Source: Nymphaea colorata (Eukaryota > Streptophyta > Magnoliopsida > Nymphaeales > Nymphaeaceae). Taken from it: a stretch of 64,000 bases of DNA. The notes beneath the pieces are model-generated. The model searched no databases. It was not told where the DNA came from and saw nothing but the letters and a program-made list of their open reading frames with translations. Every line of letters begins with the position of its first letter. Position 1 is the stretch's first letter. The stretch lies in NCBI RefSeq assembly GCF_008831285.2, contig NC_045144.1, positions 25,125,716-25,189,715 on the forward strand, written 5' to 3'. The translations under genes and the position numbers were made by a program. Shown here one piece after another: positions 11,480-54,300 of this stretch.

Positions 11480-13478
<1,999 letters not shown>

Positions 13479-14050
13479 CTACTTGGAGCGAAAGAGAGAA
13501 GGAAAGCGTCTTCTTTCTTTCTGCGATAGGGAGGGAATCAGGGAACACGTCTTCTCCCTGTGGGTGAGAGAGAGAGAGAGAGAGCTTTCTCTTCTTTTCT
13601 TTTCTTTCTGCTTATGTTGGAGCCAGCGGGTTGAGGAAGAGCAGCAAGGTGGTGAGACTGAGTTGTGGAGGTAAGGAAGGAACTGCAGAAAGGGGGCCAA
13701 GTTGGTAGCATCACGGCTGTGCATCGAGGAATCCGACCCATTTTCCATGAGCCTTCTCTCCGTTGTCAGGGGAACCGACTACCCACCTTCTCACTGAACA
13801 CCCCTTCCTTCCACGGTGGCCGAGGGGCCCTGCCTTCTGAAGGCGGCCGACCTTCTGACCTCCTCTTCCTCGCCGGAGGTGGCAGCGGCGCCCGTCCTGG
13901 CCTGCCCCTTGCTTGGGGAGGAGTCCGGGAAGGTTGAGTAGTTGTGTAGCCGTGGGTGTTTGCGAGAACCAAAGAAGTCCCAACAAGAGAACAGGAGAGA
14001 AAGGAAGAAAGAGCAGAGGAGCGCGGGAGAATCTTCTACCAAGAGCGAAA
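13479..14050 (+). promoter_or_regulatory. GGP 5' leader region
   Basis: A stretch much richer in GC than the AT-rich flanks precedes the GGP start. It contains a (GA)n tract at 13566-13584, a 6-codon AUG uORF (13614-13634), the ACG uORF frame (13713-13937), and an AUG frame overlapping it out of phase (13747-13797). GAG|GTAAGG at 13666-13673 resembles a splice donor, so an intron within the leader is possible. No clear TATA box was found. The reading frame of GGP itself stays open upstream to 13913 but has no ATG before 14051, which has A at -3. Confidence 0.6.
13713..13937 (+). promoter_or_regulatory. Non-AUG (ACG-start) upstream ORF in the GGP leader
   Basis: A 74-codon frame runs from ACG at 13713 to TGA at 13935-13937, ending 113 nt before the GGP start codon. 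The ACG context is ATC-ACG-G, with A at -3 and G at +4, which is the optimum for initiation at a non-AUG codon. The frame opens after a TGA at 13659 and has no ATG anywhere in it, so it could only be translated from a non-AUG codon. The peptide is rich in Gly, Arg and Pro (for example GIRPIFHEPSLRCQGNRLP and AGGGSGARPGLPLAWGG). Established knowledge: VTC2/GGP mRNAs carry a conserved ACG-initiated uORF that represses translation when ascorbate is high. Assignment here rests on position, start codon, context and length; the peptide was not aligned. Confidence 0.8.
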
Positions 14051-16907
14051 ATGCTGAGCATCAAGCGGGTTCCGACTGTGGTGTCGAATTACCAGGAGGG
14101 TTGCGGGAGGAATTGTCTTGGGAAATGCTGCCTCTTAGGTAATGTTTCTCTTTTCCTTGGAGGTTGCCGCTCTTAGTCAAATTGTTTATTTTGTTGGTGC
14201 TCTGTTAAGCTGCGTAGATCTACAACATAGGTCAAGCTATCGGTTGATTCGATAGGTCTTGATGCTGAGTCCACAGTAGTGCTAGATCGTTAACGGACTC
14301 CATTTCTTTGTTCATAATTTTGCGCTCCCAGACATGCTTATGTTTCTTCATTTGGGGAGTAGGTAGATTATGTTGCTTCATTTTGATTGAGGCAATTTGC
14401 TAAGAAGAATGACTGAAGAGTTTCAGGATGTATTAGCCTGTTGGATGGCTTGTCTTGCTTTCATCGAAGTTCTCCACAGATGGGTTGTTAGAGATTCCTT
14501 GGTTATGTTTATCCAGGAGCGAAGTTTCCTCGGTATACTTATAGGGGAGAGAAAGGCAGGAAGTATGTGGAGAACGACGGCCTCTCAGACAGGACCGGCG
14601 AGATGTCCCTGTTCGACACTCTTCTGATGGGAGAGGTATCTTAACATCAAATCATGGAGACGTTTTTCATACGTTTCCACGTTATCCTGACTTTCTAATT
14701 TCGGCGGTTGTTTTATTAAAAGTTTGATACCATATTTTTTTGTATATGATTTTCAGTGGGAAGATCGGATGAGCAGAGGCCTTTTTAGATATGATGTCAC
14801 TGCTTGCGAGACGAAGGTACCTTTTCCCTTCGGCAGCTTCTTCTTTTTCTGTTTTTTTCTCAGGGCTGATAGACCCCACAATTATGCATTAATCAGTTAT
14901 GGCTGGCTTGTTGTGGTAGCTGAACTTCTAGAATCACTGTTTTTGAGCTCTACCCAGACATTGATATCCCCAAGTCTCCTAGTTAAGATCAAACCAAACT
15001 TAAAAACAAAATAAAATGAGCTACAAGACTCCTTTGTAAAAATTTAAAGCATGAAATTTGCTTCTTATAATTCTGTTTGGAAGTTTTCCATTGCTTTTAT
15101 AGTTTAACACAAAGAGGATTAACACAAAAAAAAGTGCAAGTGGAGGCATTATTCATCTGTTCTTACGTTTGGCGTGTTTCGGTTTGTTGATAACAGGTGA
15201 TACCTGGCAAGTATGGCTTTATTGCACAGTTGAATGAGGGGCGTCATCTTAAGAAAAGGCCAACGGAGTTCAGAGTTGACAGGGTCCTGCAACCATTTGA
15301 TCCCAGTAAGTTCAATTTCACTAGGGTGGGACAAGAAGAGGTGCTCTTCCGCTTTGAAGAAGATACTGGAAGTGAAGATCATCATGCAATACAGTTCTTC
15401 CTCAACCCTCATGTATCTGCTTCTGCGAGTCCAAGTGTGATAGCGATTAATGTAAGGAACCCATTCATCATAGGCATTTATTTATTTATTTATTTTTCCT
15501 TATGGTACATTTAGGATCACTGGACAGAAGGATCATAGGATCCAATTTTCCAATCAAACTAGGATGCATGTGGCACAAAGGGAAAAACATGTGCATAGAT
15601 CAATTTGTAATGGGCACCGTATGGGGAAGCATTTGAAAAGGGAAAGATGAATTTATATCTTTTTGGATTGCTGAACAATGAGAGCAGATTGTAACTCTTC
15701 TCTGTTGCATATGGTTTTTAAAACTGCAAATATGATGCATTACAATGAATGTCTTGAGGGCATTCTTGGTATGTCTACATTTAATATTTATTGCCTTTGC
15801 AGGTTAGTCCAATAGAATATGGACATGTGCTGCTTATTCCCCGTATCTTTGATTGCCTCCCTCAAAAGATGGATAAGCAGAGTCTGTTACTTGCACTCCA
15901 CATGGCTGCAGAGGCAGCAAATCCGTTCTTTAGAGTGGGTTACAATAGCTTGGGTGCTTTTGCCACCATCAATCATCTTCACTTTCAGGTTCGTTAACAT
16001 GTACTTCATTAACTTGTGTGGTGGCTATCCTGCAATTGTTGAGCTATAGTGGTTAAGGTGTTGAATTCAGAAGCATAAGGAGGCTCTATTCATGTATGGT
16101 CACTCTTTATAGATAGTGAACCTCGTTCTGTGCATCTTGTTGATTGTCCTATTCAGTATTTTTATGGACCATCTTGTGAGTTGTGCCTGAGCACCTTCCT
16201 GGATATATGCAGGCTTACTATTTCAATATGCCTTTTCCTGTTGAGAAAGTACCAACCAGGAGGCTCTCTGGGAAATCCAAGAATGGTGTTGAGGTGCATG
16301 AGCTCCTCAACTATCCAGTTAGGGGCTTAGTTTTCCAAGGTGGAGACACTCTGCAAAACATTTGCAACCAAGTATCTTTATGCTGCATTTATCTTCAGGA
16401 AAACAACGTCCCGTTTAATCTCCTGATCTCAGACTCTGGCAAGCGTGTTTTCCTCTTCCCTCAGGTAAATAAACAATTGTTTTGATCATTACTTTGTTGT
16501 GATTCTTTTGCCCCAGAGTATTGAGAAGCAATAAAATCCTTTCTGTTAAAAAATAGTGCTATGCTGAGAAGCAAGCATTAGGAGGGGTCAGTCAGGAGTT
16601 ACTGGAGACTCAGGTGAATCCTGCTGTCTGGGAGATCAGTGGCCACATGGTGCTCAAGCGGAAACAGGACTATGAAGATGCATCTGAAGAATATGCATGG
16701 AAGCTGCTTGCTGAAGTCTCCCTGTCACAAGAGAGATTCGAAGAGGTAAAGTCGTCTGTTATGGAAGCAGCATTTGGAGACAGTGATGACACTCTGGCAA
16801 TTGAAGCGTCTGAAGAAACAGAAAGTATGTGCTTGCTCAAGGAAGTTGCAGCCAATGGGGTGCCTGGCATGGCAAGTGACGAGAAAGGGTGCCTTGTGCA
16901 TCAGTAA
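14051..16907 (+). CDS. GGP/VTC2: GDP-L-galactose phosphorylase (ascorbate biosynthesis), 7 coding exons
   Basis: Coding exons are 14051-14138, 14517-14635, 14757-14816, 15197-15451, 15803-15988, 16213-16464 and 16557-16907. They join in frame to 436 codons plus TAA, and every intron is GT-AG. The protein starts MLSIKRVPTVVSNYQ and carries CGRNCLG, RGLFRYDVTACETK, VIPGKYGF and EFRVDRVLQPFD, all typical of VTC2/VTC5. The HIT-type motif HLHFQ ends exon 5 (about residues 232-236); the middle His is the expected nucleophile. Known role: GDP-L-galactose + Pi to L-galactose-1-phosphate + GDP, the main control step of the Smirnoff-Wheeler route, in cytosol and nucleus. Length is close to the 442 residues of Arabidopsis VTC2. 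Exon 2 (GAKFPRYTYRGEKGRKYVEN and on) is the least conserved part. The intron 6 acceptor (AAAAATAG) has a weak pyrimidine tract. Regulation is probably through the leader uORF frame at 13713. The 3' end probably uses AATAAA at 17127. Confidence 0.95.
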
Positions 16908-33552: not shown

Positions 33553-33760
33553 ATCTTCTAGGGAACTTCTTTCTCGCCCAAGTTTTATAGGAAAAGCGAG
33601 CTACATCTTCTAGGGAACTTCATTCTCACCCAAGTTTCATAGGAAAAGCGAGCTACATCTTCTAGGGAACTTCATTCTCGCCCAAGTTTCATAGAAAAAG
33701 CGGGCTACATCTTCTAGGGAACTTCATTCTCGCCCAAGTTTCATAGAAAAAGCGGGCTTT
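33553..33760. repeat. 52-bp minisatellite, 4 copies
   Basis: Units begin at 33553, 33605, 33657 and 33709 with ATCTTCTAGGGAACTTC, and include CGCCCAAG and AAAAGCG. The last two are most alike, suggesting recent expansion at the right end. Confidence 0.93.
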
Positions 33761-34843: not shown

Positions 34844-36073
34844 ATGGTGACCGTTAAGAGCCTTGTGGCTCTGTTCTCCCTCCTCCCCCTGTTCTTTACG
34901 ACAATGGCGCAGCCATTTCCGTTGCACCAACAAGACCTGGAGTCTCTAAGGGAGATCCGGCGCAATTTGGACGACCTCCCGGGCTCCGACTTCTTCTCCT
35001 CCTGGGATTCCACGGGAGCAGACCCATGCTCCTCCTTCGCCGGTGTCGTCTGCCAGCCGGACGTGGGAGGTGGCCTTTACCAGAGGGTCCAGTCCCTCAA
35101 TCTGGGCACCGGGCTGGCGGGTTCCCTCGGCCTTACTGGCTCCCTGAGCCCGGCGCTCGGCAACCTCACGGCATTGCTCCAGCTGGTGGTGTACCCCGGC
35201 AATGTCTCCGGCGACATCCCCGACTCCATCTGCAATTTGCAGTCCCTTCAGTACCTTGAGATCACGAGCAATAGCATCTCCGGCCGCATTCCGGCATGCC
35301 TGGAAAATCTACAGAGCCTTCACACCATAGATCTCGGATACAACAATCTCCACGGGCCGATTCCAGCGAATCTGTCGTCGTCTTCCATGGCACTCAGAGT
35401 ACTGATCCTCACGTCGAATTTCCTTTCCGGCCCGTTGCCGAATTTCGACGCTCAGTTCTTCCACATTGACATCAAGAAAAACCTTTTCACCGGGTTTCTT
35501 CCCCGGTTTCCGGCCTCACTCCGGTACCTATCAGCGTCGCAAAACCGGTTGTCCGGCCCGCTGACGAATCTCGTCCCCCTTCCCCAATTGAGCTTCCTAG
35601 ACATGAGCATGAATGACTTCAATGGCAGCATACCAACAGCCTTATTCAGCTACGACATATCGTCTCTGCTCCTGCAGAGGAACAACCTCTCCGGCCAGAT
35701 CCCTAGCATGAGCCAGCGAGCGAACCTCGCCGCCGCCACCGTCGACCTCAGTCACAATAACCTCACCGGCGAGTTGCCGGTGGGTCTCGCCGGCGTCGAG
35801 AACCTGTTCCTGAACAACAACAGGTTCACCGGGCCGGTCCCCGTTGAGTTCGTCAACAATGTCTACGGTGGGAGCCTGAAGACACTGTATCTGCAGCACA
35901 ACTACCTGACGAGCTTCCCGGTGCCGCCGGGCGGCGGCGCCGGGCTGCCGGAATCGGGCTCGCTTTGCATATCCTACAACTGTATGGATCCGCCCGTTAG
36001 GCCACCCTGCCCCGCAAGCGCCGGGAAGCAGCAGTCGAGGCCGGTTAATCAATGCCCGGCATATAACGGCTAG
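34844..36073 (+). CDS. Secreted leucine-rich-repeat protein, single exon, no kinase
   Basis: An uninterrupted 409-codon frame. Residues 1-22 form a signal peptide (hydrophobic VALFSLLPLFF, then TTMAQ). An LRR N-terminal domain follows (LESLREIRRNLDDLPGSDFF, paired with DPCSSFAGVVC). About ten plant-type LRRs run from roughly residue 85 to 340 (LQYLEITSNSISGRIPACL, VDLSHNNLTGELPVGLAG). The tail is Cys-containing (LCISYNCMDPPVRPPC and PVNQCPAYNG). There is no transmembrane helix or kinase domain, so the product is probably apoplastic or cell-wall associated. Layout, length and tail match the small angiosperm LRR family that includes Arabidopsis At4g03010 and At1g03440; their role is poorly known and none is assigned here. 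The start has good context (GCAATGG). The coding sequence is far richer in GC than its flanks, as is common for such intronless genes. Confidence 0.92.
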   Translation: MVTVKSLVALFSLLPLFFTTMAQPFPLHQQDLESLREIRRNLDDLPGSDFFSSWDSTGADPCSSFAGVVCQPDVGGGLYQRVQSLNLGTGLAGSLGLTGSLSPALGNLTALLQLVVYPGNVSGDIPDSICNLQSLQYLEITSNSISGRIPACLENLQSLHTIDLGYNNLHGPIPANLSSSSMALRVLILTSNFLSGPLPNFDAQFFHIDIKKNLFTGFLPRFPASLRYLSASQNRLSGPLTNLVPLPQLSFLDMSMNDFNGSIPTALFSYDISSLLLQRNNLSGQIPSMSQRANLAAATVDLSHNNLTGELPVGLAGVENLFLNNNRFTGPVPVEFVNNVYGGSLKTLYLQHNYLTSFPVPPGGGAGLPESGSLCISYNCMDPPVRPPCPASAGKQQSRPVNQCPAYNG

Positions 36074-51335: not shown

Positions 51336-54300
51336 TCAATTCTTTTGGTGAACGGCAATCCTGTGTATCTCCATGTCCTTGAGCATGACAGAACGGCCAC
51401 AAGAATCGCAAGGCGCTGTTCTAGACCCACAGACACTCTCATGCTCTGAGAGCCCTCTCATCCTGTCACGAACATCTGAAGGAAAAGTGCCCGCAGGCAC
51501 CATGTCACCACAATAACGGCATGTTATCAAGCGCAGTGGACAAACAGATGACTGATGTATTACCTGTTACAGAAAAGGAATGTGTTATGAAGCAAAGAAG
51601 ATTTGTAGAACTCAATCTATGGAAGAGAATCAATTAAATTATACAATAAAATCAACTTGATGTAGTATTATGCATTCTCTCACCATAGCTTCCTGCTCCA
51701 GAGATACACCACATGCACAATACAGTGGTTCATGGAACACTTTCATGTGTTTCTCCATCTCTTCCCTGTGCAATGCCTTCCCACACTTTGTACAGTGAAC
51801 ATGACTTCTCGCTTCATCTTTTCTCAGAACCACCCCACAACCTTCTTGTGGACAAACAACATTGTGACGGCTGCAGTATGCCTCATGGAGCGCAATTGTC
51901 CTAGTGGGTATGTAATGGTGACAGTTGCTACACATCGAGCAATCAGTTTTGTCTGCAGAGGTGGAAGAAACTGCACGTTCTCCATGCCTTTGGTGGAGTT
52001 TCTCTTGAAGGGAAACTGAAACGTGGTACTTGCTTGATCCCTTGAATCCAAAAATACCAATGCTGTAGGTGCCAGATGTTAGTTCCTTATTGTCACCACC
52101 AAGAATCAATACCTTAGAACCCACATCATGAGATGACCATTCGTGCTGATGCTTGGATGGGAAGAGAACAGGATGCCTAGATACATAAAGATCCGTGTCC
52201 CCGCTGTTGATCTCAACATCTAATTTAACCTCAACAACGACGTTCTCATTGGATAATTTTGAAATAACATTATCACCAATGGAGAATTTGTAGTACTCGT
52301 ATCTTCCTTCCTCCACGGTTCCTGACTCCACCTTGCCTAGCACAAGTGCATTCAACAGGGGTTGATCCACCGATTCTGATGTTGAAGAAGGTTCAACTAT
52401 GTCGACTTCTACATCTGTTTCTAACACCGAAACACTAGAAGAGGGCTTAAGTTCAAGGACTTTCAACTTATAACTTAACCCTCCGTGGTTAACTGTAAGT
52501 ATGTCTCCTTGAGAAAGGGTTGCATGTTGACGAAGACTTGTCTCAAGAACAGCCTTGTGGTTGGGTATATCAGAGAATCCTATGGTATCAGGTTGTAGTT
52601 TTGCATATGTTCCTTTCGGTAACCTCACATAACGAACCTCAATTAAAGGGGTGTTGTCAACTGGAATCGGGAACAAATTGGTCCAAATATGAGGAGGAAG
52701 CTCAACTGAACCTTCTGCAGCAGTAAACTCAAGAACCCCACAGTGAGTAGTTCTGTTGTCTTCGTGTTTGGTGTCCGCTGAACTTAAAGCTTCTGAATTC
52801 CCTTGGTAGATCTTCAAAAGCTGGAAGAACATTGGTCCTTTATCCAGAGCACCTTGATCTGACAATTCTGAGAAGCATGATGGTGGTAGCTTAATCTTAT
52901 CACCATAGCCTTGGTAAGGGGCAGCTTCAAAAATACGGTAGAAAATAACTCCATTCCCAGCACGTAAGTTCTCCTCCATTTGTTGATTTGCCTGAGCGAC
53001 GATGAAAATTCAAAACCCTCATCATTTTAAACATTCAAATTATCAAATTTCATAGTCACAACTCTCAAAGGAAAGGAGTAACTGAAAAAACAAAAGTTTG
53101 AAGGGACCAAAACTTTTTCTCCAGAATATGAAAGCAGATACAATCATTTCAAGCAAAATCCATTAAAAAAATGAACTGAAATTCTGTGGAGATTGGATAA
53201 CAATGCCTTAGCAGGCTACTGAAAGTACCCTTAACTATGTTAGCATGGTCTTTTAGTTAATAAAAGGACCCAGAATAGTACCACTGCTTGTGATGTCGTG
53301 ACTTGGGAGGCCATTACTTAACAGCAAGAGAACATTGACTTCATTATTTAACTTGTAGTCATGGCAGATGAAAAATTCATTAGCACCAACAAGATGCTAT
53401 CCTTGGTTGACTAGGTCAGAAGATACAAAACCTAAAGACAAATGGTGAGGGAGGATCAGCACTCTCTCGTTCATTGCCCTACAAGTAAAGACATGTTTAA
53501 TACATCATTTTGAGAAAAATCTAAGAAACTTAGGTTACTTGTATATCTTTAGCCAGAATTTTCATATGCTTTCAGGTCATCTATTTTTCGATAAAGTCTA
53601 GGTAGCAAGAATACCATCTTAGCTCTCGTTTGCTATCCCGTATAATGAAATTATATTGGAATCTCACTGGAGTGGCTGTAGCCCAGATCTTCAGCTGCAC
53701 CAATGCGATTGACATACAAGAGCATACTTTGCTATAGGATGGAAGCTAGATGTAATCCCCCATATGCAGGGCAGCCTTAAGGCTTTTGCTAACCAGAGGC
53801 CAGCCCATATGCAGTTGATGATGGAACCGTCCTACCCAGTAGTAGCCTAAATCTTCAGCTGCACCTATGTGACTAACATTCAAGAGAACCCTTTACAGTA
53901 GAACAGAAGCTAGGTGTATTCCCCAATGCGGAAAAGGAGACCTCAAGGGATTTACTAAATACTAACCAAAGGTCGACGAATAAGCAGTAGATTGCATAGG
54001 GTCTGCATTTGTAAAACAAACAGTCAAAAAAGGTTACAGGATTCAAACAGATATTTGGTATGGGGTGCCCTTTGATTAGAATGGAAGAATGTTCACACTT
54101 TAACAGTGGTGCAAGGCTCTAACATACAGAACTTTTCACTTTCATTAGCAGCAATTATATTGACCATTAGTCAGTCCAAATCCATGAAAAAGCTCACCGT
54201 TCAGATGAAAACCATGGTGAATTTTCAATTATCTTTAACCCTTGAAAGGTTTTGCTAGCTATCCAGATGAAACGACTGGTTTTTGAGGTGCACTCGATGT

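Follow-up and report, generated by a model that had tools for sequence, protein, structure and literature searches.

The ascorbate-responsive, conserved-peptide uORF of the GGP/VTC2 genes was reportedly described by Laing et al. 2015. The question raised by the present locus is whether the AUG-less frame at 13713..13937 (+ strand) is a uORF of this kind, at which codon it would start, and which part of its peptide is maintained by selection. The window, i.e., the whole stretch analysed, comprises 64,000 nucleotides of plant DNA (C7:25125716-25189715) from an assembly of 407.8 Mb in 783 contigs. With a probability of about 0.9, the frame would be the conserved-peptide uORF of GGP/VTC2, probably working as an ascorbate feedback by analogy with other plants.

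The GGP gene, its leader and the second copy

The frame lies 5' of a gene on the + strand (14051-16907), in the predicted leader. The gene encodes 436 aa in seven exons (14051-14138, 14517-14635, 14757-14816, 15197-15451, 15803-15988, 16213-16464 and 16557-16907), which have matches within the plant's own genome. The exon ends were placed by hand, with GT...AG introns and an open frame as criteria. The product carries both marks of GGP given in excerpts of PMC6878703, the HphiHphiQ triad (here HLHFQ) and KKRP. Against Pfam the protein gives a single sub-threshold, unrelated match, and against PDB no match at E <= 0.001. The assignment as GGP is therefore based on the motifs, the exon-intron structure and the presence of another such gene in this genome. 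GGP genes mostly have 7 exons in eudicots I, 6-8 in monocots I and 5-6 in monocots II and eudicots II (excerpts of PMC7640755); the seven exons found here equal the commonest number of eudicots I, lie inside the range of monocots I and exceed that of the last two groups.

The frame is opened by the TGA at 13659-13661, is closed by the TGA at 13935-13937 and contains no in-frame ATG. The ACG at 13713-13715 stands in the context AGC ATC ACG GCT, with A at -3 and G at +4, and 74 codons precede the stop. Between this stop and the GGP ATG at 14051 there are 113 nt. The opening stop, the lack of ATG, the ACG context and the spacing had all been given in the preliminary description, and they hold. 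The leader contains, in addition, two AUGs out of frame with the ACG: one upstream of it that opens six codons (MLEPAG, 13614..13634, +), and one within the ACG frame that opens 16 codons (13747..13797, +). To estimate the chance of such a frame, the segment 13560-14050 was shuffled 3000 times with dinucleotides preserved. In 27.6% of the shuffles some stop-to-stop frame reaches at least 91 codons, so the open frame by itself is just suggestive, and in 0.7% there is an ACG frame of at least 74 codons with A at -3 and G at +4, under a criterion chosen post hoc.

Searched against its own 408-Mb genome at E <= 10, the uORF peptide gives two matches, both scored as candidates: the window itself and C7:16605579-16605677. 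The latter is placed in front of the one further GGP gene detected in this genome, 8.5 Mb from the window copy. A search of the same genome with the GGP protein gives 13 matches, all at these two loci, and among them there is no processed copy that records a spliced leader. In the second copy (locus L011), the ATG is at L011:1883 and the ACG at L011:1510, 373 nt before it; the uORF (L011:1510-1737) has 75 codons and ends 145 nt before the ATG. The main proteins of the two copies are identical at 298 of 431 aligned residues, and their coding sequences have an NG86 dN of 0.22 and a saturated dS of 2.79. By these values the duplication is old; excerpts of PMC7640755 place a GGP duplication before the angiosperm radiation. 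The leaders align poorly beyond the uORF (judged by eye on one global alignment). A TATAAAG precedes the second-copy leader at L011:1295, and the same pattern was not found in the window except for a TATAAA at 13051.

A pure TA repeat of 49.5 copies (12291-12389) lies about 1.3 kb upstream of the uORF. Elsewhere the window contains a gene for a leucine-rich-repeat protein with an N-terminal LRRNT_2 domain (about 34844-36073, +), in whose region the most GC-rich kilobase of the window is found (35001-36000, 0.588). About 1 kb upstream of this gene there is a tandem array (33553-33758) of four copies of a 52-bp unit with 96% match. An open frame on the - strand (51639-53009) encodes UFD1 N-terminal domains and also matches the zinc finger Znf_XAF1_N. 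No tRNAs were found in the window.

Probable start codon and candidate leader intron

The codons ATC and ACG stand side by side at 13710..13715 (+). Both are named as start codons of GGP uORFs in other plants, and the choice between AUC and ACG is left open (excerpts of PMC6878703 and PMC7084844); by our own interpretation the two codons would be adjacent in the published alignments too. Twelve near-cognate codons, one base off ATG, occur in the window frame, and two of them have both A at -3 and G at +4, the AAG at 13677 and the ACG at 13713. AAG ranks among the least used near-cognate starts (PMC11062462). The same conserved uORF might begin at another near-cognate codon, e.g., ATC 13710 or GTG 13665, a reading that is compatible with its identity as a GGP uORF. 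The second copy speaks against this. Its ACG likewise has A at -3 and G at +4, AAC stands where the window has ATC, and the frame opens at a stop just two codons earlier. The missing ATC makes AUC a less likely start than ACG, and the stop leaves no in-frame start before the ACG in that copy, AAG and GTG included. A start elsewhere than at the ACG is thus improbable, and initiation at the ACG is the predicted case.

Directly behind the ACG, the N-terminal block TAVHRGIRPIFHE (13713..13751, +) bears a weak similarity to the second-copy block TAILKSVRQHLHD, with 4 of 13 residues identical, several conservative changes and a BLOSUM62 score of 25. This score is reached by 1 of 20000 shuffles. Searched in either direction, the pair ranks first among the leader 13-mers (524 and 513, respectively), and it is tied first among 127,924 in the window. 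The codon differences of the block (6, 5 and 7 by codon position) do not by themselves demonstrate purifying selection.

The out-of-frame AUG at 13747 has a counterpart at L011:1544; in both copies it lies 34 nt past the ACG, within CATGA (His-Glu/Asp codons), and the frames that it opens differ (16 codons in the window, 10 in the second copy). A longer AUG frame of the second copy (L011:1428-1547, 39 codons) overlaps the ACG in another register, so the leader of that copy may be subject to more than one kind of repression. A stable hairpin is predicted directly behind the second-copy ACG (L011:1525-1584, -22.5 kcal/mol). As an aid to ACG initiation it was rejected, being unshared: for 60 nt the z value is -2.7 in the second copy and +1.5 in the window, and for a longer segment -1.5 and +1.1.

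The preliminary description had named an intron that removes the frame as an objection to the uORF, and a candidate was found at 13671-13769 (+), GAG/GTAAGG ... TTGTCAG/GGG. It is an unproven splice-matrix prediction. The matrix, built on this genome's 12 GGP introns, is small, and the real sites were scored leave-one-out. The donor at 13671 and the acceptor, after which the exon would resume at 13770, are the strongest of the leader with 9.9 each, above 10 of the 12 real donors and all 12 real acceptors. They form the only pair of at least 9.5 spaced 70-150 nt on either strand of the window, and a pair of at least 9.5 at 70-400 nt occurs in 0.35% of 2000 leader shuffles, with the cut-off of 9.5 chosen after the pair had been noticed. 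The 99 nt are divisible by three, and their splicing would remove the ACG, the N-terminal block and the AUG at 13747.

If this intron were constitutive, the mature mRNA would lack the ACG and keep the core peptide in an AUG-less frame, with GTG 13665 and CTG 13794 as the near-cognates that precede the core. The splice sites are in favour of it, but the composition of the segment is not: its A+T (about 0.46) is lower than in any of the 12 real introns (0.59-0.72), and so is its T (0.22 against 0.29-0.53). No YTNAY is present at -60 to -14, a lack shared by 2 of the 12 real introns, and the best sites of the second-copy leader score 5.5 and 5.5, which are not comparable. Furthermore, the ACG and the N-terminal block inside the segment have similar counterparts in the second copy, hardly expected after so long a separation. 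The post hoc cut-off and the 12-site matrix weaken the case as well. The objection stands as far as the splice pair around the ACG is concerned, but constitutive splicing is unlikely.

Regulated retention of the segment is a doubtful but distinct case. The unspliced mRNA would carry the uORF, and the spliced one would lose the ACG and the AUG at 13747 and escape repression. Splicing would then toggle the ascorbate feedback in one of the two GGP copies, which would add a control layer to vitamin C synthesis. Reports of GGP-leader splicing were absent from the literature matches listed, which does not amount to a firm negative, and other ascorbate genes are named as alternatively spliced in excerpts of PMC10069634.

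The conserved core peptide

The reading as a GGP uORF started at ACG is carried by a core of 24 codons, HGGRGALPSEGGRPSDLLFLAGGG, at 13812..13883 (+). The second copy encodes nearly the same peptide, and the two-copy core is HGGRGALPSEGG[R/S]PSDLLFLAGGG; this argues for a family member rather than a chance frame. In the core 15 of the 24 codons differ, 14 synonymously and one by replacement, and the differences are distributed as 3, 0 and 14 over the codon positions. NG86 counts 16 changes over 21.3 synonymous sites and a single one over 50.7 replacement sites. Read in either of the other frames, the same alignment has 13 replacement codons and not one synonymous codon. When the 17 differences were placed at random 20000 times, the number of replacement codons never fell to one or below. 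Given the age of the second copy, these values point to strong purifying selection on the core peptide, as judged from one gene pair. In the comparison of the main proteins, 37 of 408 windows of 24 codons have at most one replacement; the constraint of the core is like that of the best-kept parts of the enzyme and does not go beyond them.

Two further explanations can be practically dismissed on this evidence. A functionless open frame in a GC-rich leader would account for the length, which many shuffles equal, but not for the codon pattern kept against an anciently diverged copy, and is refuted for the core. An RNA or DNA element would suit the location within a leader, but the differences fall mostly on third positions with the amino acids kept, and no Rfam family reaches its gathering score within the window.

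Counted from the codon before the ACG, the window has Ile at 1 and Glu at 44 (in PSEGG), and the second copy Asn at 1 and Glu at 41. Excerpts of PMC6878703 describe Ile as the first residue and Glu at consensus residue 45 in non-grasses. The core Glu agrees with this textual description of the non-grass state if the positions correspond, an equation that is our own.

Outside the core, the N-terminal half and the tail appear to be poorly conserved between the copies and could be loosely constrained. The middle block EPSLRCQGNRLP (13749..13784, +) may be colinear with the second-copy stretch ESCLTSKCTRLP; the two have 5 of 12 residues in common, four of the five through synonymous codons. The in-frame reading by MAFFT (E..L.....RLP) is weak, with its score reached by 650 of 20000 shuffles, and a gapped in-frame comparison of the middle region is at chance level (0.59 of shuffles). 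In the MAFFT alignment, six residues are unique to the second copy and nine to the window. The latter, TFSLNTPSF, occupy the nine codons just before the core (13785..13811, +) and are absent from the second copy in the protein alignment. The C-terminal tail SGARPGLPLAWGGVREG (13884..13934, +) is not evidently conserved, and the tails of the two copies have no evident relation. A compensated frameshift between the middles was also considered. The nucleotide alignment that suggested it had a score matched by 61 of 2000 shuffles, but none of the frame pairs was conspicuous (smallest fraction 0.08), and the idea was dropped after the in-frame alternative of MAFFT, itself weak, had been obtained. 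Selection, which the preliminary description had proposed to test, was assessed within the genome against the other GGP copy; the result is clear for the core, and for the N-terminal half it is weak.

The uORF peptide has no match in Pfam, and in PDB it has chance-level matches alone (E 0.79 and 0.94). The uORF pattern occurs in 36 and 27 stretches of viral contigs and in 595 and 492 stretches of prokaryote genome contigs, none of which was confirmed by tblastn at E <= 1e-3. The peptide strings of the uORFs were not found in a literature text search.

Proposed feedback and comparison with known uORFs

The layout of the known GGP/VTC2 uORF, recognized in the preliminary description, is supported by the position in the leader, the HLHFQ and KKRP motifs of the downstream product, the selection on the core, and the presence of the AUC and ACG codons named as starts elsewhere. 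On sequence grounds, the frame is very probably a further member of this family. In other species the uORF represses GGP, and its disruption raises ascorbate (excerpts of PMC6878703, PMC12559526 and PMC11066809). A non-canonical start, repression and a proposed stalling are also treated in PMC11066804 and PMC7084844. The mechanism proposed is that the peptide stalls the ribosome when ascorbate is high; according to PMC11066809, direct evidence for an action of ascorbate on stalling is so far missing.

From these plants we infer that the leader of the present gene is transcribed, that translation of the uORF begins at the ACG, and that stalling and a response to ascorbate follow, which would amount to an ascorbate feedback in this species. 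Some of the scanning ribosomes would start at ACG 13713. When ascorbate is high, the nascent peptide would stall the ribosome, fewer ribosomes would reach the ATG at 14051 and less GGP would be made. On the other hand, when ascorbate is low, the ribosomes would pass the weak ACG start and GGP would be produced. Since the core alone is nearly invariant, it may be the sensing or stalling part, and the N-terminal half would mainly provide the start and the spacing.

The within-genome constraint map is new, as are the candidate intron in the leader and the absence of ATC from one copy. The map was obtained without outside sequence: the 24-residue core is nearly fixed and the remainder drifts. It would narrow the location of the ascorbate-sensing or stalling element, which excerpts of PMC11066809 call unresolved. 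Editing of the uORF raised ascorbate in several crops (PMC6878703, PMC12559526, PMC11066809, in excerpts), and a known biofortification target would be extended to another plant genome.

Compared with the GGP/VTC2 uORF as described in the excerpts cited, the present frame shares the GGP leader, the ACG in good context, the lack of in-frame AUG, the conserved peptide and, if the positions correspond, the core Glu, and both GGP copies found here possess the uORF. The length is different. The frames have 74 and 75 codons, whereas 47-65 residues are quoted: 60-65 in general, 47 and 56 in wheat and 60 in rice (excerpts of PMC6878703, PMC12559526 and PMC7084844). The length of 60-65 residues is taken here as a descriptive and not a defining trait; published lengths vary, and the extra length of both uORFs falls in unconserved parts. 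Further differences are the strong conservation between the copies confined to the 24-residue core, the absence of ATC from the second copy, and the in-frame, intron-like pair around the window ACG. Other uORF peptides respond to other metabolites, namely those of SAMDC to polyamines and of S1 bZIP to sucrose (PMC6878703) and that of XIPOTL1 to phosphocholine (PMC11062462). With these systems, as far as the excerpts describe them, the present uORF would share the principle that a uORF peptide controls translation of the main frame in dependence on a metabolite; the peptides and the genes are different.
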